64,000 bases of DNA, taken from the NCBI GenBank assembly GCA_030603695.1, contig JAUVXF010000015.1, positions 1 through 64,000 of the forward strand, written 5' to 3'. Below, piece by piece: positions 5,335-46,699 of the stretch. Both the position numbers and the translations under genes were made by a program. Source of the DNA: Natronohydrobacter sp. (lineage in GTDB: Bacteria > Pseudomonadota > Alphaproteobacteria > Rhodobacterales > Rhodobacteraceae). Each line of letters begins with the position of its first letter. Positions within the stretch are counted from its first letter, which is position 1. The notes under the pieces are model-generated. The model had not been told where the DNA came from. It saw only the letters and a program-made list of their open reading frames with translations, and did no database searches.

Positions 5335-5900
5335 GGTGCTGCGCGGGGTTCTCTTCTCGCATCTTCACTGAAGCAGGCATAGATAAACAGCAGCAAGGTG
5401 ACGGGTCGCTTTGCATGGCAGCGCATCGCTTGGCCCTCTCGCCAAGCGCGGAATCAAGGGCGCAGCCCGCCGCGCCTCAAAGGGCCGCCCCCCGGCACAG
5501 CGATTTGGCTGCAACCTGTGCATAGCCTGAATTTCGCGCGGATTTGGCCGCCATAAAGTGACATAGCCCCCCGGTCGGATCGCCGCACCGCGGCCCAGCA
5601 ATGCGCGGCTTGTCTTTCTGCCCGGTCTCTGGAGAAGGCATGTATATCAGGCGCGGGGAGATGGGCGGCTTTCCATGCGGCGCATCGCTTGCCCCCCTCG
5701 CGCCAAGCGCGGAACCCAGGGCTTTAGCCCGCCGCGCAGAGTCATGCCGAAGGCATGTCTCTGGCATGACGCCGCCTCCCGGCACGGCGATTTGGCTGCC
5801 GTGGGCGCTTAGCTTGGGTTTCGTTCGGATGTGGCCAGCATAAAGCGCCTAGCCAGACCGATGCTTCGCCGCACCCCAGCCCAGCGCGGCGCGGCATGGG
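5335..5900 (-). repeat. Dispersed repeat array R1 (minus orientation)
   Basis: The 679-base gap between the DUF4139 gene and ubiK is filled by the dispersed repeat family. It holds one good core copy (reverse complement of TGTCCGAACGAAA near 5819-5830), one variant core near 5528-5545, hairpin modules at about 5446-5477 and 5705-5737, block-1 copies ending near 5611, and a degenerate block 1 near 5860-5900. The module at 5341-5386 is identical to 11535-11580 except for one base. Open frames cross the array but change frame between copies, so I see no gene. Confidence 0.85.
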
Positions 5901-11159: not shown

Positions 11160-11804
11160 GGCGCTTGGCCCCCTCGCGCCCTGCGCGGAATCAAGGGCTT
11201 TAGCCCGCCGCGCATGGTGATAAGCGGCTTCGCACGGTAGCGCGGGGCCTTGCCCCCTCGCGCGCTGCTTGCGCGGAATCAAGGGCGTCAGCCCGCCGCG
11301 CATCGCTGGGCCGCCCCCACGGCCCGGCGATTTGGCAGCCGCAAGTGCTTAGCTTGGATTTCGTTCGGATTTGGCCGCCATAAAGCGCTTAGCTGTTCGG
11401 TCGGATCGCCGCACCGCGGCCCAGCAATGCGCGGCTATTTACCCGCTCCGTCGCCGAAGAAGGCAGAGGCATCAGGCGGATGGTGACGTGGGCGGCTTTG
11501 CATGGCAGCGCGTCGCTTGGCCCTCTCGCGCCCTGCGCGGGGTTCTCTTCTCGCATCTTCACTGAAGAAGGCATAGATAATCACCCGCAAGGTGACGGAT
11601 CGCCTTACATGGTTGCGCATCGCTTGGCGCTTACGCCCCGCGCGGAATCGAGGGCGCAGCCCGCCGCGCATCGCTGGGCCGCCCCCCGGCACAGCGATTT
11701 GGCTGCCGCAAGTGCTTAGCTTCAGTTTCGTTCGGACATTGCCGCTATAAAGCGCATAGCTATTCGGTCGGATCGCCGCACCGCGGCCCAGCAATGCGCG
11801 GCTT
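11160..11804 (-). repeat. Dispersed repeat array R2 (minus orientation)
   Basis: The 915-base gap between the protease start (10977) and glcF (11893) contains this array; 10978-11159 holds nothing I can identify. It has two cores (about 11359-11370 and 11726-11738, reverse complement of TGTCCGAACGAA), hairpin modules at about 11192-11213, 11272-11302 and 11640-11672, and block-1 copies ending near 11433 and 11804. The order of blocks mirrors the plus-strand arrays. Module 11535-11580 matches 5341-5386 with one mismatch. Its ORFs are not coding. Confidence 0.85.
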
Positions 11805-11892
11805 GCGGTAGTGGCCCAGCGCCGTGCGGCTTGGGGCCACTCGCCCAACCGCGCGGCCCTGCCCATGGCTACCCCGTGTCAGTTCCAGACCC

Positions 11893-20864: not shown

Positions 20865-22106
20865 ATGACACAAGCCCGCGCGCCCCTGATGACCCCGGTT
20901 TTGATTGGTGGCTGTATCATCATCATGATCAGCTTTGCCATTCGCGCCAGTTTCGGGGTGTTCCAGATCCCAATTGCCGAAGAATTCGGCTGGTTGCGGG
21001 CCGAATTCTCGCTGGCGATTGCGATTCAGAATTTGGCATGGGGCATTGGCCAGCCGATATTCGGCGCGATTGCCGAACGCTTTGGCGACCGCCGCGCCAT
21101 CATCCTTGGCGCGCTTGTCTATGCGGCGGGGCTGGTGCTGTCCTCTTTCGCGGTCACGCCCGGCGCGCATCAGTTGCTGGAAATCCTTGTGGGCTTTGGC
21201 ATTGCGGGCACGGGTTTTGGGGTGATTCTGGCGGTGGTGGGGCGCGCGGCCTCGGATGAGAACCGCTCTCTGGCGCTAGGCATTGCCACGGCGGCGGGCA
21301 GCGCGGGGCAGGTATTTGGCGCGCCTGTGGCCGAAATTCTGCTGGGCTTTTATGCGTGGCAAAGCGTGTTTGTCATCTTCTCGGTGGCGATTCTGCTGAC
21401 CCTGTTCGCGCTGCCGATGATGCGCAGCCCCGCCCCTGCCAGCCGCGCAGAGTTGGAGCAAAGCATGGGCCAGGCGCTGACACAGGCGTTTCGTGACCCG
21501 TCTTTCACGCTGATCTTTCTGGGCTTTTTTTCCTGCGGCTATCAGCTGGCCTTTGTGACGGCGCATTTCCCCGCAATGGTGACAGAGATGTGCGGCCCGA
21601 TTGCGCCGGACGGGATGCTGGCGGCCTTTGGCATTACCACCACATCGGCGCTGGGGGCGGTGGCAATCTCGCTGATCGGGCTGGCCAATATTGGCGGCAC
21701 GATTGCGGCGGCATGGCTGGGCAAGCGCTATTCCAAGAAATACCTGCTGGCGGGGATATATATGGCGCGCACAGTGATCGCGGCAGCCTTTATCCTGTCG
21801 CCCATCACGCCGGGTTCGGTGCTGTTATTCTCGCTGCTGATGGGGGCGTTATGGCTGGCGACTGTGCCGCTGACATCGGGATTGATCGCGCATATTTACG
21901 GGTTGCGCTATATGGGCACGCTGTATGGGATCGTGTTTTTCAGCCACCAGTTGGGCAGCTTTCTGGGCGTCTGGCTGGGGGGGGCGCTCTATGATCTGCA
22001 TGGCGATTATACGCTGGTGTGGTGGGTGGGGGTTGGGGTTGGCCTGTTTTCGGCCATTGTGCACCTGCCCGTGCGCGAACGCGCGCTGAACCTGCGGCCC
22101 GCCTGA
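20865..22106 (+). CDS. Major facilitator superfamily transporter
   Basis: A 413-residue permease with twelve predicted membrane helices. The MFS loop 2-3 motif is seen as GAIAERFGDRRAIILG. The layout (IRASFGVFQIPIAEEFGW at the start, Gly-rich helices) resembles monocarboxylate/oxalate-type MFS members common in Rhodobacterales. It may take up a small organic acid; substrate is not determinable. It is downstream of smc behind a hairpin and convergent with ethylmalonyl-CoA mutase across repeat array R3. Confidence 0.85.
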   Translation: MTQARAPLMTPVLIGGCIIIMISFAIRASFGVFQIPIAEEFGWLRAEFSLAIAIQNLAWGIGQPIFGAIAERFGDRRAIILGALVYAAGLVLSSFAVTPGAHQLLEILVGFGIAGTGFGVILAVVGRAASDENRSLALGIATAAGSAGQVFGAPVAEILLGFYAWQSVFVIFSVAILLTLFALPMMRSPAPASRAELEQSMGQALTQAFRDPSFTLIFLGFFSCGYQLAFVTAHFPAMVTEMCGPIAPDGMLAAFGITTTSALGAVAISLIGLANIGGTIAAAWLGKRYSKKYLLAGIYMARTVIAAAFILSPITPGSVLLFSLLMGALWLATVPLTSGLIAHIYGLRYMGTLYGIVFFSHQLGSFLGVWLGGALYDLHGDYTLVWWVGVGVGLFSAIVHLPVRERALNLRPA

Positions 22107-22180
22107 GAAGTTTGGCACCGTATCCGTAGAGATGGCACAGGAAGGGTCGAGCGGATTGCCGAGCTTTTGAGTTGCGCACA

Positions 22181-22980
22181 AAGCCGCGCAGCGCTGGGCC
22201 GCGGTGCGGCGATCTGCCCGCAGGGCTAAGTCACTTTATGGCGGCCAAATCCGCGCGAAATATAAGCTATGCGCAGGTTGCAGCCAAATCGCTGTGCCGG
22301 GGGGCGGCCCAGCGATGCGCGGCGGCCTTCGGCCTTGATTCCGCGCTTGGTGAGGGGGCCAAGCGATGCGCTTCCATGCAAAGCCAACCGTCACCTTGAG
22401 GCTGATTATCTATGCCTTCGCCAGTCATAAAGACAAGCCGCGCATTGCTGGGCCGCGGTGCGGCGATCTGGCCTTGAGGCTAGGCGCTTTATGGCGGCAA
22501 TGTCCGAACGAAACTCAGGCTAAACGCAGGGTGCAGCCAAATCGCCGGGCCGTGGGGGCGGCCCTTTGAGGCGCGGCGGGCTAAAGCCCTTGATTCCGCG
22601 CGGGGCGCAAGAGAGGGCCAAGCGATGCGCTGCCATGGAAAACCAACCATCATTCCGCGCCTGATATCTATGCCTTATCCAATGACAGGGTGAGTAGAAA
22701 AGCCGCGCAGCGCTGGGCCGCGGTGCGGCGATCTGGCCTTGAGGCTAGGCGCTTTATGGCGGCAATGTCCGAACGAAACTCAGGCTAAGCGCAGGATGCA
22801 GCCAAATCGCCGGGCCGGGGGGCGGCCCTTTGAGGCGCGGCGGCCTGCGACCTTGACTCCGCGCTTGGCGCGAGAGGGCCAAAGGATGCGCCATCATGCA
22901 CCGCCGCCCATCACCAAGCGCCTGATATCTATGCCCTCGCCAATGACAGGGCGAGTAGAAAAGCCGCGCATTGGGGTGGC
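22181..22980 (+). repeat. Dispersed repeat array R3 (plus orientation), best-preserved copy
   Basis: The 930-base gap between the convergent MFS and mutase genes holds head-to-tail units. Block 1 (GCCGCGCAGCGCTGGGCCGC or a close variant) starts at about 22181, 22435, 22700 and 22961, giving unit lengths of 254, 265 and 261 bases. Cores lie at 22247-22260 (variant), 22501-22513 and 22766-22778. Hairpin modules are at about 22319-22351, 22570-22600 and 22832-22865. The last unit is truncated after block 1. The open frames through the units shift frame between copies, so they are not considered genes. Confidence 0.9.
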
Positions 22981-23036: not shown

Positions 23037-25010
23037 TTATTCAGCGGCCAGAGGTGCGCTGTCAACCAAGCCCACGATATCCATCATGATGCGATTGAGC
23101 TGGAAATCCTTGGGGGTATAGACTTGGGCAATGCCCATTGCGCGTAGCCTCACAGCGTCGTCATCCGGGATGATCCCGCCCACGATGACAGGGATATGCG
23201 CCAGCCCTTCGGCCTGCATCAGGCGCATGAGTTCTTCCATCAGCGGCATATGGCTGCCCGACAGGATCGAGAGGCCCACGACATGGGCATCTTCCTCGCG
23301 CACAGCGGCCACAATCTCTGCCGGCGTCAGGCGGATACCTTCATAGGAGATATCCATCCCGCAATCGCGCGCGCGCGCGGCGATTTGTTCGGCGCCGTTG
23401 GAATGGCCATCCAGCCCCGGTTTGCCCACCACGAATTTCAGCCGCCGCCCCAGTTTGGCGCTGACAGCATCCACGGCCTCGCGCACTGGCTCAAGCCCCT
23501 CGGTGCGGTTGGAGGGCGCGCGGCTGACGCCTGTGGGCGCGCGGTATTGGCCGAAGGCGGCGCGCACAGTCTCGCCCCATTCGCCCGTTGTCGCGCCCGC
23601 CTTGGCCGCCGCGATAGAAGCGGGCATGACATTGACGCCCGCGCGCGCAGCCTCGCGCAGATCGGCCAGCGCGGCGCGCACCGCCCCCTCATCGCGCGCG
23701 CGGCGCCATGCCAGCAGGCGGGTGATCTGGTCGGCCTCTGCCTCTGGGTCGCAGACCATGATTGCGCCTTCGCCTGTTGTCAGGGGCGAGGGTTCGGTGG
23801 TGGTGAATTTATTGACGCCCACCACAACTGTCGCGCCTGTCTCTATGCCCGCAATACGCGCGGCGTTTGCTTCGACCAGCCGCGATTTCATATAGTCAAT
23901 CGCCTTGACCGCGCCGCCCATGGCGTCGATGCGCGCCAGTTCCTCGCGCGCGCCGTCCATCAGTGCGGCCACTTTGCGATCTATGGCGGGGTTGTTGTCA
24001 AAGAGATCATCAAATTCCAGCAGATCGGTTTCATAGGCCAGAATCTGTTGCATCCTGAGCGACCATTGCTGATCCCAGGGGCGCGGCAGGCCCAGCGCCT
24101 CGTTCCAGGCGGGCAGTTGCAGCGCGCGGCAGCGGGCCTTCTTGGACAGCGTGACCGCCAGCGCCTCTATCAGTATCCGATAGACGTTGTTTTCGGGCTG
24201 TTGTTCGGTCAGGCCCAGCGAATTGACCTGCACGCCGTAGCGGAAACGGCGGTATTTCGGATCGGTGATGCCGTAGCGGGTTTCGCAAATCTCATCCCAC
24301 AGATCGACAAAGGCGCGCATTTTGCACAGCTCTGTCACAAAGCGGATGCCAGCATTCACAAAGAAGGAAATGCGCCCCACCATTTGCGGGAAATGCCGGG
24401 CGGGAACCTTGGTTTTCAGATCATCCAGCACCGCGCAGGCCGTGGCCAGCGCAAAGGCCAATTCCTGCTCTGGCGTCGCGCCTGCCTCTTGCAGGTGGTA
24501 GGAACAGACATTCATCGGGTTCCATTTGGGCAGGTATTCGCGCGTATAGGCCGCGACATCGGTAATCATGCGCAAGCTGGGTTCTGGCGGGCAAATATAT
24601 GTGCCGCGCGAGAGGTATTCTTTGATCAGATCATTTTGCACCGTGCCATTGAGGGCCGAAATATCGGCCCCCTGTTCTTCCGCCACCGCGATATATAGCG
24701 CCAGCAACCAAGGCGCGGTGGCGTTGATGGTCATGGAGGTGTTCATCTGTTCCAGCGGGATCTGGTCAAACAGCATGCGCATATCGCCCAAATGGCAGAT
24801 GGGCACGCCCACTTTGCCCACTTCGCCGCGCGCAAGCTGGTGGTCGCTGTCATAGCCTGTCTGGGTGGGCAGATCGAAGGCCACGGAAAGGCCGGTTTGC
24901 CCTTTGGACAGGTTTGTGCGGTACAGGGCATTCGAGGCCGCGGCCGTGGAATGGCCGGCATAGGTGCGAAACAGCCAAGGCTTGTCTTTCGGTTCTGTGG
25001 CGTCGGACAT
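23037..25010 (-). CDS. ecm: Ethylmalonyl-CoA mutase
   Basis: A 657-residue coenzyme-B12-dependent mutase converting ethylmalonyl-CoA to methylsuccinyl-CoA in the ethylmalonyl-CoA pathway for acetate assimilation. The catalytic barrel begins KDKPWLFRTYAGHSTAAASN, and the C-terminal cobalamin domain has the DxHxxG motif in KPGLDGHSNGAEQIA, followed by GLSILSGSH and VGGIIPDDDA. Length and the single-chain form fit Ecm better than methylmalonyl-CoA mutase (over 700 residues). The ATG at 25010 has an AAGGAG ribosome site; the extra 38 upstream codons were rejected. Confidence 0.93.
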   Translation of the reverse strand: MSDATEPKDKPWLFRTYAGHSTAAASNALYRTNLSKGQTGLSVAFDLPTQTGYDSDHQLARGEVGKVGVPICHLGDMRMLFDQIPLEQMNTSMTINATAPWLLALYIAVAEEQGADISALNGTVQNDLIKEYLSRGTYICPPEPSLRMITDVAAYTREYLPKWNPMNVCSYHLQEAGATPEQELAFALATACAVLDDLKTKVPARHFPQMVGRISFFVNAGIRFVTELCKMRAFVDLWDEICETRYGITDPKYRRFRYGVQVNSLGLTEQQPENNVYRILIEALAVTLSKKARCRALQLPAWNEALGLPRPWDQQWSLRMQQILAYETDLLEFDDLFDNNPAIDRKVAALMDGAREELARIDAMGGAVKAIDYMKSRLVEANAARIAGIETGATVVVGVNKFTTTEPSPLTTGEGAIMVCDPEAEADQITRLLAWRRARDEGAVRAALADLREAARAGVNVMPASIAAAKAGATTGEWGETVRAAFGQYRAPTGVSRAPSNRTEGLEPVREAVDAVSAKLGRRLKFVVGKPGLDGHSNGAEQIAARARDCGMDISYEGIRLTPAEIVAAVREEDAHVVGLSILSGSHMPLMEELMRLMQAEGLAHIPVIVGGIIPDDDAVRLRAMGIAQVYTPKDFQLNRIMMDIVGLVDSAPLAAE

Positions 25011-25245
25011 GGGGCGGCTCCTTTGGCGGAATGGCATATGCTTGGTAATATTCTTGCCCAAACGGTTGCTGAATGCGCAACATGATGTCAAGCCAAAATC
25101 GCTGCATTGCGGCGTAGATGACATGACGTCACGGCCCTGCGGCCTTCGGCCCCCAAGGCCAGCCGTTGCGCTGGTGATCTGCCCCGCGCATCGTTATCCC
25201 AAAGGCATGCCCGCAGCATGGCGGAACCCTGTGTCAGGGCGTGAC

Positions 25246-28968: not shown

Positions 28969-29298
28969 GAGTTCTCTCCGGGAAATGACTGTCCGGGCGG
29001 GCTGCCCGGTCTGCGCCGCGCCTTAGCATGCCCCGCAGCCAGAGAAAAGCCCAATGCTCTGAGGGGGCATGCACAAGGGATGTGCGGGGGCATCTGCGGG
29101 GGCGGGGGTAGAAAAGATTGCCGGTGATGGGGCTTGCATCAGCGCCCCGCTTGGGCCAGCATCCGGGCTATTGCCGCGGCTTGGCCGCAAAATTCATATG
29201 GTTTCAGCTCTGCTTTGCCTTGGGCAGGCACCCTTTTTCCGGCAGGCCCGCGCCCTCGCGCTGTGCCGGCCATAAAGACAAGATGTTACAGGACGGCC
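28969..29298. other. Divergent intergenic gap, no gene seen
   Basis: The 330-base space between the divergent ndk and GT61 genes should contain both promoters. I see G-rich tracts (for example GGGGGCGGGGG near 29096) but no convincing promoter, RNA gene or repeat-family copy. Confidence 0.5.
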
Positions 29299-30489
29299 AT
29301 GTATCCAGACACGCCTTCGCCCGACAGCCTGCCCCCGATTCAGAAATTCACGAATGTTGTGGTCGGGCCATCCTCTGACCGGATGACACCGGGGGTGCAA
29401 TGGCCTGATTTTGGCGCGCAGCACCATGCGCGTCTGTTGCGGCGGGGCAAGCCCGTCTGCACCCGCCCCACCATCCCCGATGGCAAGCTGGCGGTCATGG
29501 CCCAGCCTGCGATTTTCATTTCCATGTATGACAATCATTTCGGGCATATGGTTTCGGAAACCGTGCCACGGCTGGCGCAACCCTTGGCCGAATTGCCCGC
29601 AGATTGGCCGCTGATCTTCACCTGTGACACGCGGTTTGGCCCGCCGCACCCCTCGCCCATGTTCCGCGCGGTGATGGAATGGCTGGATATCCCCCTCTCG
29701 CGCCTGCAATTTTGCAACACGCCCACGCTCTTTCGGGAATTGCATGTTCCCGCGCAGGCAGAGCATCTGGACGGGCCAGACCCAACCCCCGCGCAATATC
29801 TGGATTTGCTGGACGCGCGCATAGAAGCCAAATTGCCCAAAGCCGCGCCAGAAGGGGTTGCCTTTGTCAGCCGCGCCGCACTGGATGTGGAAAAGGGCTA
29901 TCACGCGGGAGAGCGCTATCTTGTCGCCTGTCTGGAGGAATTGGGCGTGCGCATCGTCTATCCCGAAAAGCTGCCCTTGGCCACTCAGATGAAGATATAT
30001 GCCCAAAGCCGCCATCTGGTGTTTTCCGAAGGCTCTGCACTGCATGGGCGGCAGTTATTCGGGCGGCGCGATCAGCATATCTGGGTGCTGCGCCGCCGCC
30101 AGCGCAGCCATATTGCCCAAGCCCAGATTGCGCCGCGCTGCGCGCAGCTGTCCTATGTGCCCTGTTTTGCCGGTGCGCTGCATGTGATCGGCGGCGATGG
30201 CCAGCCCATCCGCTTTGCCATGTCCACACTCTACCGCGTTGGCCCGCTTCTGGATCACTTTGAACAGATGGGCCTGCCCCTGCGCCGCCTCTGGGAGCAA
30301 CCGCTTTACGAGCGCGTGCGCGATACCGACATCCTGCGCTGGCTGGCGCGGATGTATCACCCCAAACTGGCCCATTGGCTGCGCCCGCAGAATACGCCCG
30401 ATTACATGCTGGCGCAATTTGGCGAACTGGGCTTGGAACATCTGCTGCCAGAGGCGCGCGCGATCATGGCGCAGCCGCCCGCAGCCTAG
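29299..30489 (+). CDS. Glycosyltransferase family 61 protein
   Basis: A 396-residue protein of the GT61 (DUF563) type. Typical phrases are SMYDNHFGHMVSETVPRLA at about residues 75-95 and, near the C-terminal half, LVFSEGSALHG, which corresponds to the conserved 'GxHGAxLxN'-like region of the family. GT61 enzymes transfer sugars onto surface polysaccharides or proteins. The start at 29299 (MYPDTPSPDS) begins the conserved part. No signal peptide. Substrate unknown; there is no polysaccharide cluster around it. It is followed by repeat array R4. Confidence 0.75.
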   Translation: MYPDTPSPDSLPPIQKFTNVVVGPSSDRMTPGVQWPDFGAQHHARLLRRGKPVCTRPTIPDGKLAVMAQPAIFISMYDNHFGHMVSETVPRLAQPLAELPADWPLIFTCDTRFGPPHPSPMFRAVMEWLDIPLSRLQFCNTPTLFRELHVPAQAEHLDGPDPTPAQYLDLLDARIEAKLPKAAPEGVAFVSRAALDVEKGYHAGERYLVACLEELGVRIVYPEKLPLATQMKIYAQSRHLVFSEGSALHGRQLFGRRDQHIWVLRRRQRSHIAQAQIAPRCAQLSYVPCFAGALHVIGGDGQPIRFAMSTLYRVGPLLDHFEQMGLPLRRLWEQPLYERVRDTDILRWLARMYHPKLAHWLRPQNTPDYMLAQFGELGLEHLLPEARAIMAQPPAA

Positions 30490-30551
30490 AATCGCCACCT
30501 GCGAGAGGGTTGCGCCATGAGGGGCAGCTATGCAGGGGATGGGGACGTTCG

Positions 30552-30727
30552 CAAAGCCGCGCAGCGCTGGGCCGCGGTTCGGCGATCTGGCCTTTAGGCT
30601 ACTTCACTTTATGGCGGCAATGTCCGAACGAAATCCAAGCTAAGCGCAGGGTGCAGCCAAATCGCCGTGCCGGGGGGCGGCCCGGCGATGCGCGGCGGCC
30701 TTCGGCCTTGATTCCGCGCTTGGTGCT
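30552..30727 (+). repeat. Dispersed repeat R4, single unit
   Basis: A single partial unit in the 375-base gap after the GT61 gene: block 1 from about 30553, core TGTCCGAACGAAA at 30621-30633, and the hairpin module (GGCC-TTC-GGCC inner stem) to GATTCCGCGC near 30722. The unit stops after the hairpin, and the second spacer module is missing. It is the simplest instance of the element. Confidence 0.85.
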
Positions 30728-40523: not shown

Positions 40524-41110
40524 GGCCTGGGCGATGCGCTGCGATGCAAAGCCGCTTATGACCTTGCGCTTGATAGCCATGCCTTCTCCTGTGACGGGGT
40601 GAGTTGAAAAGCCGCGCAGCGCTGAGCCGCGGGGCGGCGATCTGCCCTTGAGGCTATGTCACTTTATGGCTGCAATGTCCGAACGAAACTGAGGCTATGT
40701 GCAGGATGCAGCCAAATCGCGGTGCCGTGGGGGCGGCCCAGCGATGCCCTGCGATGCAAGGCGGCCTGTCACAACGCGGCTGATATTCATGCCTTCCCCT
40801 GTGACGGGACGAGTTGAAAAGCCGCGCAGCGCTGGGCCGCGGTTCGGCGATCTTGCCTTGAGGCTATGTCACTTTATGGCGGCAATGTCCGAACGAAATC
40901 CAAGCTAAGCGCAGGGTGCTGCCAAATCGCCGTGCCGGGGGGCGGCCCTTTGAGGCGCGGCGGCCTGCGGCCTTGATTCCGCGCTTGGCGAGAGGGAGGC
41001 AAGCGATGCGCTGCCTGAAGGCAAAATCGCCCGACTGGGGGGCTGCCCTTTGAGGCGCGGCGGGCTAACGCCCTTGATGCCGCGCTTGGTGAGGGGGCCA
41101 ATCCGCGCGC
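40524..41110 (+). repeat. Dispersed repeat array R5 (plus orientation)
   Basis: The 675-base gap between the convergent threonine aldolase and HlyD-type genes contains this array. Block 1 starts at about 40609 and 40819 (210 bases apart), cores lie at about 40676 and 40886, and hairpin modules at about 40952-40985 and 41053-41088. The first full unit lacks the hairpin module, which explains its short length. The second hairpin copy has lost the GANTC (GATGC). Nothing coding is evident. Confidence 0.85.
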
Positions 41111-41194
41111 TGCCATGCGCAGTTTGTGACATTGACCGGGCACCCACAGCCCGACCGCCCCTGCGCAGCCGTTGCGTTTGCCATACGCAGTTCC

Positions 41195-45567: not shown

Positions 45568-46640
45568 AGCGGGGGCGGCCCTGAGAGGCGCGGCGGCCTG
45601 CGGCCTTGATTCCGCGCTTGGTAAGAGGGGGGCAAGCGATGCGCTGCCATGGAAAGCCGCCCATCTCCATGCTCCTGATACCTATCCCTTCTCAAGTGAC
45701 GGAGCGGGTAAAAAGCCGCGCATTGCTGGGCCGCGGGGCGGCGATCTGACCGGGGGGGCTATGCACTTTATGGCGGCAATGTCCGAACGAAACTCAGGCT
45801 AAGCGCAGGGTGCAGCAAAATCGCCGGGCCGTGGGGGCGGCCCAGCGATGCGCGGCGGGCTAAAGCCCTTGATTCCGCGCTTGGCGCGAGAGGCCAAAGG
45901 ATGCGCCATCATGCACCGCCACCCATCACCAAGCGCCTGATATCTATGCCCTCGCCAGTGACGGGGCAGAAAGACAAGCCGCGCAGCGCTGGGCCGCGGT
46001 GCGGCGATCTGGCCTTGAGGCTATGCGGTTTATGCTGGCCAAGTCCGAACGAAGCTGAAGCTAAGCGCTGGTTGCAGCCAAATCGCTGTGCCGGGGGGTG
46101 GCCCAGCGATGCGCGGCGGCCTTCGGCCTTGATTCCGCGCTTGGTGAGAGTGGGGCAAGCGATGCGCCCCCATAAAGCCAAATCGCTGTGCCGTGGGGGC
46201 GGCCCAGCGATGCGCGGCGGCCTGCGGCCTTGATTCCGCGCAAGGTGCGCGAGAGAGGGTTAGGCGATGCGCTGCCATGGAAAGCCGCCCATCTCCATGC
46301 GCCTGATACCTATCGCTTCTCAAGTGACGGAGCGGGTAAAAAGCCGCGCAGCGCTGGGCCGCGGTGCGGCGATCCGACCGAATAGCTAAGCGCTTTATGG
46401 CGGCAATGTCCGAACGAAATTGAAGCCAAGCGCCCACGGCTGCCAAATCGCCGGGCCGGGGGGCGGCCCTTTGAGGCGCGGCGGGCTAAAGCCCTTGATT
46501 CCGCGCTTGGTGAGAGTGGGGCAAGCGATGCGCCCCCATAAAGTCTGCCATGGGGGCGGCGTCATGCGTGTAGGCAAGCCCCCTCGCAGGGCGATGCGCG
46601 GTGGGCTTTGGCCACGGTTCCGCGTGGGGAGAGGATGGGG
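45568..46640 (+). repeat. Dispersed repeat array R6 (plus orientation), longest array
   Basis: The 1181-base gap between the ABC ATPase start and yaiI end is filled by this array. Block 1 starts at about 45713, 45976 and 46341; cores lie at about 45780, 46042 and 46407; hairpin modules at about 45586-45620, 45848-45884, 46109-46142, 46209-46242, 46475-46510, and a degenerate one at 46593-46630. The second interval is 365 bases because an extra half-unit (about 46177-46260) was inserted. The remainder to 46699 shows no gene. Confidence 0.88.
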
Positions 46641-46699
46641 CAAGGCTGTGGTGCTGTCTTTGCTTATAGGCCAGACATATCATAGCGCCGCGCTGCCGC

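Follow-up and report, generated by a model that had tools for sequence, protein, structure and literature searches.

RUP of Streptococcus pneumoniae is described as an IS630-Spn1-related MITE of 107 bp with 110 copies in one genome, and its density is reported to peak 50-150 bp from genes (PMC3049150). The same source describes the Correia elements of Neisseria, which contain an internal sequence of up to 156 bp between 26-bp inverted repeats, and SPRITE of S. pneumoniae, which resembles a Rho-independent terminator and is enriched near the 3' ends of convergent genes (PMC3049150). In the Rhodobacterales, MITEPye1 of Paracoccus yeei is described with IS1182-type ends and 1-3 chromosomal copies (PMC11578231). 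The literature covered holds no other MITE for a genus of this order.

The repeats analyzed here can be compared with each of these systems by description. As with RUP, they are short and intergenic, and part of the copies end like an IS630 element found in their own genome or genus; they differ from it in that the elements measure 297-334 bp and carry a 168-nt core that covaries order-wide and is apparently exchanged and inverted. They share with Correia elements a composite build, with an internal part between inverted repeats. The position at the 3' ends of convergent genes recalls SPRITE, whose description is without a large core. MITEPye1, too, is a Rhodobacterales MITE, intergenic and with a long stem-loop, but its ends and copy number are different as described. 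Correia elements are linked to IS630, which favors a CTAG target and duplicates TA. ERIC and RIME/ABC mosaic elements are intergenic palindromic mosaic families, to which a likeness can be drawn by description alone.

Here we analyze a tandem array at 22181-22980 of a 64-kb stretch of DNA (the window). We consider it probable that the array is a pile-up of a non-autonomous, IS630-related MITE-like element of the Rhodobacterales, which is built in two layers.

Results

The array is built from a 168-bp core

A first-pass annotation of the window had placed the first block of the repeat (AAGCCGCGC...) at 22181, 22435, 22700 and 22961. These starts, spaced by 254, 265 and 261 bases, were confirmed; the fourth copy (22961) is a stub and leaves the repeat after AAAGCCGCGCATTGGGG. 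The same annotation reported the units in five other gaps of the window, and BLAST with the three units matched all six gaps, whose combined length was re-summed to ~3.8 kb. The repeat is thus real, but the 254-265 bp unit did not hold up as the basic element: many matches outside arrays end after ~168 bp. The repeating unit consists of a ~168-bp structured core and an array-specific spacer of ~90 bp that ends near TATCTATGCC and is seen in arrays. Since the matches of many other copies in the genome are limited to the core, we regard the core as the basic element, and arrays as derived from it. The designation "type array" describes a side form, since single cores make up 27 of the 40 clusters listed. 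The genome holding the window is denoted G000. The array and its neighbors are laid out as follows, with R1 denoting a covariance model from 51 diverse cores.

20865..22106 (+) MFS transporter gene, left neighbor, convergent with the MCM gene (Pfam PF07690)
22180..22348 (+) core copy 1 (nhmmer; model R1, 173 bits)
22349..22433 (+) array spacer 1, containing ...TATCTATGCC... (sequence)
22434..22603 (+) core copy 2 (nhmmer, model R1)
22604..22698 (+) array spacer 2 (sequence)
22699..22866 (+) core copy 3 (nhmmer, model R1)
22867..22959 (+) array spacer 3 (sequence)
22960..22975 (+) fourth core, truncated start (sequence)
23037..25124 (-) methylmalonyl-CoA mutase (MCM) gene, right neighbor (Pfam PF01642)

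The other copies in the window are four further arrays and a single core with a decayed end.

5367..5898 (-) second array: full core at 5444-5612 and partial core reaching 5898 (BLAST, nhmmer, model R1)
11162..11805 (-) third array: cores at 11269-11438 and 11638-11805, with fragments (BLAST, model R1)
30486..30510 (+) decayed IS630-like left end of the copy at 30553 (by eye)
30553..30721 (+) single core, flanked by arm Y on the left and arm X on the right (model R1)
40531..41117 (+) fourth array: full core at 40818-40986, partial core at 40606-40739, fragments (BLAST, nhmmer, model R1)
45571..46644 (+) fifth array: cores at 45712-45882, 45975-46142 and 46340-46508, partial copies (BLAST, nhmmer, model R1)

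The earlier remark that no transposase accompanies the arrays fits the window sites examined (Pfam search of ten neighboring ORFs). No tRNA or tmRNA gene was found in the 64-kb window.

Copies are distributed across the Rhodobacterales

BLAST gave 65 matches in G000 (from 133 candidates), and R1, with 150 candidates scored per genome, counted 89 copies. Of the other genomes of the same genus (G005, G009, G019, G020 and G021), four were counted with R1, which found 118 copies in G020, 49 in G009, 38 in G021 and one in G005. A BLAST match was obtained in 17 of 23 congeners; G005 is one of the six without a match. The array spacing of 254-265 bp would fit a purely local tandem duplication, a reading that the annotation had tied to absence elsewhere in the genome. 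The 89 genome-wide copies and the order-wide distribution described below refute it, and we give it hardly any credence.

A sample of 149 genomes from 72 genera of the Rhodobacterales gave R1 matches in 90 genomes and 48 genera; at most 19 candidates were scored per genome, so that copy numbers from this sample are lower bounds. The genomes listed from this sample all belong to the family of the window (39 genomes without a match are outside the list). In a class-wide sample, R1 matched 2 of 144 genomes, G000 and G040, both of the same family, and no genome outside the family had an R1 match in either the order sample of 149 or the class sample of 144. A single 55-bp BLAST match in G035, from another family, was not confirmed by R1.

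A pattern scan of GTDB genomes returned at least 104 stretches, nearly all labeled as Rhodobacterales genera or Rhodobacteraceae. Among the listed scan matches, the labels outside the Rhodobacterales were one "Alphaproteobacteria bacterium" and two Enemella evansiae, an actinobacterium. The two element-bearing contigs of E. evansiae TN21-6 (L168:141-308 and L199:627-797) likely reflect a contaminated assembly. Matches were also found in 94 plasmid records, 91 of them from Pseudosulfitobacter. The element as phage cargo was rejected: it was unmatched in a phage collection, and viral contigs held no match to one exact pattern.

In a phylogenetic tree, for which only the BLAST-best copies of the relatives were taken, 51 G000 cores formed one clade (support 100/99), so the G000 lineage has homogenized or amplified its own stock of cores. 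The G000 contigs C2, C29 and C30 end in or near cores and C34 ends inside an IS630 copy; the repeats probably break this assembly.

The core has a covarying secondary structure

A bulged hairpin of 31 bp forms the main stem of the core; the apical part holds a near-invariant TTTAT, and a hairpin on the 3' side competes with the foot of this stem. The main stem is divided into P1 (20 bp) and P2 (11 bp). Across the 51 diverse cores, 93.2% of the cells of P1, P2 and the 3' hairpin are paired, and both sides have changed in 17 of 35 pairs. None of 500 shuffles reached this pairing, which drops to 30-58% when the partners are slid. The foot of P1 competes with a further helix, P4: the middle GCGCGGC pairs either with the 5' GCCGCGC or with the 3' CCGCGC. 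P4 is paired in 97.0% of cells and was equaled by 0 of 500 shuffles on four measures and by 2 of 500 on a fifth. Joint changes of the three competing segments are seen in L170, a copy from Jannaschia, and in L256 and L257, there in the family-2 copies. TTTAT is required by no search pattern, while part of P2 and CGGCCC are fixed by the scan pattern, so that covariation is under-sampled in those columns. Together, these patterns point to a conserved, covarying secondary structure, which may also be one of structured DNA. A coding core was rejected: no frame is open in more than 26 of the 51 sequences, and lengths fall in all three frames.

Four variants (L076 at G000:C2:189256, L062, L051 and L204) carry an extra TCATGCC...GGCATGA hairpin, which sits at the bulge that separates P1 from P2 or takes the place of a large part of the core.

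The 64-kb window had no Rfam match at the gathering score, and with a lax threshold the array gave far-subthreshold matches only (best E=0.39, 22.3 of 168 bits). At 12 loci, the only matches over gathering were cobalamin, tRNA and one ar14, none of them on the core, and a known Rfam family was thus rejected. No description of this repeat family was found in the open-access literature searched; the view that the family is unrecognized therefore stands for Rfam and for that literature. In Sulfitobacter sp. 20_GPM-1509m (L152:3624-5115), a run of CcsR1/ar14-like sRNA matches adjoins the element. One ar14 match of this run is over the gathering score and the others are below it, and a cobalamin riboswitch lies upstream.

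Part of the copies carry IS630-type ends

Outside the core lie arms of roughly 60-90 bp with an inverted repeat (GTGTTYGCCACCTGACA...) at the tip, adjoining CTAG or TAG; complete ends stand 297-334 bp apart. This outer layer was seen in G000, G009, G019, G021 and the MAG LH_M48. A search with the arm motif led to IS630 transposase genes that have the motif as their terminal repeat. One congeneric transposase (L271:1556-2647) matches NF033545 at 1.6e-79 and also DDE_3, and the end of this IS630 is CTAGTGTTCGCCACCTGACA. Of the 20 places found in four genomes, the motif is at an IS630 end in three and on its own in three (L264, L273 and L283); at all others it lies beside a core or part-core. In G000, the distance between an IS630 end and the edge of its contig is ~100-120 bp (C34:14660-14783, L266), with only 21 transposase residues readable, and an intact IS630 copy in this genome is likely.

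When the fetched DNA was scanned for paired ends at a distance of 40-420 bp, 15 matches were obtained, 13 of them with a core (11 by the motif test, and L278 and L282 by profile). The other two matches were L281, which has a partial core, and one of 209 bp that looks coding. The MAG LH_M48 supplied one of the 13 core-bearing pairs and G000 none; the other twelve belong to G009, G019, G021 or a Roseinatronobacter record. No element with IS630 ends but no core was found in this DNA, most of which had been fetched by its core.

At up to 4 mismatches, where shuffled patterns give 0-0.3 expected matches, at least one IS630-type end stands near the core in 6 of 54 copies of G000, 4 of 21 of G021, 4 of 8 of G019, 7 of 22 of G009, and 10 of 83 copies from other records, which overlap the G-genomes and so are not all other genera. 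Seven of these last 10 are from records named Roseinatronobacter and three from the MAG LH_M48. At the same threshold, 48 of the 54 G000 copies are without a recognizable IS630 end, and both ends are found in 1 of 54. IS630 ends as a universal feature were rejected, with 0 of 15 copies in G020 (same genus) and 0 of 5 in Pseudosulfitobacter; the ends of the G020 type look different, and outer ends change between lineages.

The arms within one copy do not co-vary. The arms as an extension of the core stem were rejected as well, because a copy's own arms pair no better than those of other copies (p=0.997 in G000, 0.48 in G009, 0.83 in G019, 0.52 in G020 and 0.10 in G021); a duplex-energy version of this test gave 0.025 in G021 only.

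REP/BIME-like elements mobilized by a RAYT transposase would likewise be short palindromic intergenic repeats in many copies. However, Y1_Tnp (PF01797) is unmatched in the copy-rich G000, G009, G019 and G021. Across 40 genomes it has any match in 8, of which 6 are over the cut-off, and G016 and G020 have sub-cutoff matches only. REPs are far shorter than the element, and we judge this origin very improbable. The first reading had offered a MITE, a REP-like element or a repeated RNA; the MITE is best supported, by the IS630 ends in part of the genus, the CTAG/TAG and the empty sites, and a REP of the RAYT type is unsupported; a repeated RNA may be compatible with the strongly covarying core.

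Copies lie behind genes, and three arrays are absent from syntenic gaps of relatives

Genes were called approximately, with our own codon-usage script. In G000, genes abutting copies have a TAG stop in 32 of 57 cases, compared with 16 of 126 other genes (Fisher p=2.7e-9), and 17 of 84 flanks have a CTAG at a distance of 55-100 bp from the core, versus 2 of 84 further out. At the copy at 30553, the CTAG of the left end gives the TAG stop (30487-30489) of ORF 29134-30489 (Glyco_transf_61). The TAG excess is also found in other records named Roseinatronobacter (12/25 versus 11/94, p=2e-4) and is weak in other records (25/93 versus 46/320, p=0.008). It is non-significant in the MAG JAFIEO (7/26 versus 14/76, p=0.40), Sulfitobacter (3/15 versus 4/44, p=0.36) and Pseudosulfitobacter (5/10 versus 26/111, p=0.12), where CTAG at 55-100 bp was found in 0 of 33, 0 of 27 and 0 of 16, respectively. 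CTAG or TAG stands at several element ends, and the comparison of filled and empty sites gave no clean pair at base resolution.

Copies prefer the gaps between convergent genes, which hold 22 of 42 clusters in G000 versus 6 of 124 other gene pairs, and 37 of 67 versus 44 of 322 in other records. Each of the six sets tested shows this enrichment, with p between 3e-12 and 0.004. Divergent gaps account for 1 of 42 clusters in G000 and 7 of 67 in other records. In tandem contexts, the core has the orientation of the gene in 10 cases and the opposite in 6, by a hand count on rough gene calls.

Syntenic gaps, compared by eye, were informative for three of the six window sites, those at 30552, 40524 and 45568 being without synteny. 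The array at 11160-11804 is absent from the syntenic gap in all five relatives examined (gaps of 165-206 bp versus 1005). The array at 22181 is absent in G005, where the stop codons of the two convergent genes are ~1 bp apart, and the array at 5335 is absent in G019, while G009 holds a remnant. The insertions thus appear to be polymorphic between species. One insertion place shared by all species was not seen, these three window sites being empty in relatives. At the G009 ortholog of the 5335 site (L355, G009:C10:165760-166260), a truncated element lies beside a plain hairpin, and G019 has the plain hairpin only.

The core might instead be kept for a function, as a structured RNA or a bidirectional 3'-end (terminator or mRNA-end) module with a P1/P4 switch, which transposition only distributes. 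The covariation of P1, P2, the 3' hairpin and P4 against shuffles would agree with such a role, as would the convergent enrichment in all six sets. However, the core is oriented both ways relative to genes, five relatives have element-free sites, and six of the 23 congeners are without a BLAST match (the model giving one copy in G005). Moreover, placement at 3' ends is also expected from selection against insertion into genes and promoters together with TAG-forming ends. We regard a core kept for such a function as rather unlikely.

Cores appear to be exchanged and inverted between arms

In G021 (21 copies, 210 pairs), 14 pairs have a core identity of at least 97%. In these pairs, the first 15 bp outside the core have a mean identity of 1.00 on the left and 0.82 on the right, and identity falls to 0.73 and 0.52 at 20-45 bp and to 0.55 and 0.56 at 50-90 bp. 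Pairs with a core identity of 60-85% have 0.58 and 0.57 at 20-45 bp and 0.56 and 0.57 at 50-90 bp. Between near-identical G021 copies the identity breaks off ~13-34 bp away from the core, in similar places. Because flank identity drops in pairs with near-identical cores, the recently copied piece would be the core with a short margin rather than the 330-bp element. Elsewhere, G020 has one pair of at least 97%, with the same pattern, and G000 and G009 have none; in their pairs of 93-97%, identity falls less sharply.

In G000, where both arms could be classed in 18 of 55 copies by consensus strings picked after looking at the data, the core stands both ways between the same two arms: 11 copies are Y-core-X and 7 are X-core-Y, with no X-X or Y-Y. 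The G020/JAFIEO set (9 of 30 classed) has 6 and 2 copies in the two orientations and one Y-Y. Of the 68 other Roseinatronobacter copies, 17 could be classed by consensuses of IS630 ends, with 11 Y-Y, 3 Y-X and 3 X-Y. Their ends are often alike, and orientation there therefore says little; with 11 of 17 having same-type ends, it is G000 and the G020 lineage that carry the two-arm picture.

Two Pseudosulfitobacter plasmids that are 97-98% identical in long aligned blocks differ in core type at two sites that they have in common, and the differing types sit in opposite orientation. Recombination or conversion through the inverted arms could explain such exchange. Between these two plasmids (L254/L255 and L256/L257; NZ_CP054608 and CP070882) there is a large inversion, both endpoints of which lie in elements. 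At L257:29825-30161 (CP070882), a 3' fragment of a family-1 core and a weak second match (9.1 bits) stand ~100 bp apart.

The stop of identity at similar positions in G021, the two orientations between the same arms and the difference of outer ends between lineages could also be explained if an inner unit of ~200 bp (the core with ~15-20 bp per side) were itself mobile and inserted into older palindromic arms. However, no empty arm pair was found in the DNA scanned, no target duplication at the inner junctions was seen by eye, and there is no candidate enzyme, which makes a mobile inner unit unlikely.

Discussion

We then propose a model for the IS630-related MITE-like element. An IS630 transposase made elsewhere in the cell would move the element in trans into TA sites. 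With G as its first base and C as its last, the element would create a TAG at each border on entering a TA site; this TAG can act as a stop codon and would fit the position just behind genes. Existing copies would swap their cores through recombination or gene conversion, which the inverted-repeat arms would permit in both orientations; this exchange is suggested by the identity boundaries, the orientation counts and the core swaps. The ~260-bp arrays may have formed later by tandem amplification of the core and the array-specific spacer.

Judged from sequence, part of the copies would pass as MITEs on the features that can be tested. The element seems to go beyond an ordinary MITE in having a covarying core with two exclusive pairings, which is found in both orientations between the same arms and is apparently exchanged between copies. 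It is tempting to speculate, with reserve, that the 168-nt core is a structured module with a function of its own, which has lasted as long as the order itself on changing transposon ends, and that within elements it has been swapped, turned around and supplanted by alternative core types. Such a core might serve an undescribed recombination system as its recognition body, or else act as a 3'-end regulatory RNA of wide occurrence. This possibility likens the core to the conserved domains of animal SINEs, which are described as carrying an analogous conserved domain (PMC6887750).

As far as the sources covered go, this would be a repeat family that matches 90 of the 149 Rhodobacterales genomes in the sample and yet is absent from both Rfam and the literature. 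Ends that make TAG would give a plain reason for the position of the element behind genes. The family raises the question of why a non-autonomous element keeps a covarying core order-wide, and how cores swap and flip within their arms. The elements also appear to shape replicons, since the plasmid inversion described above begins and ends inside them.
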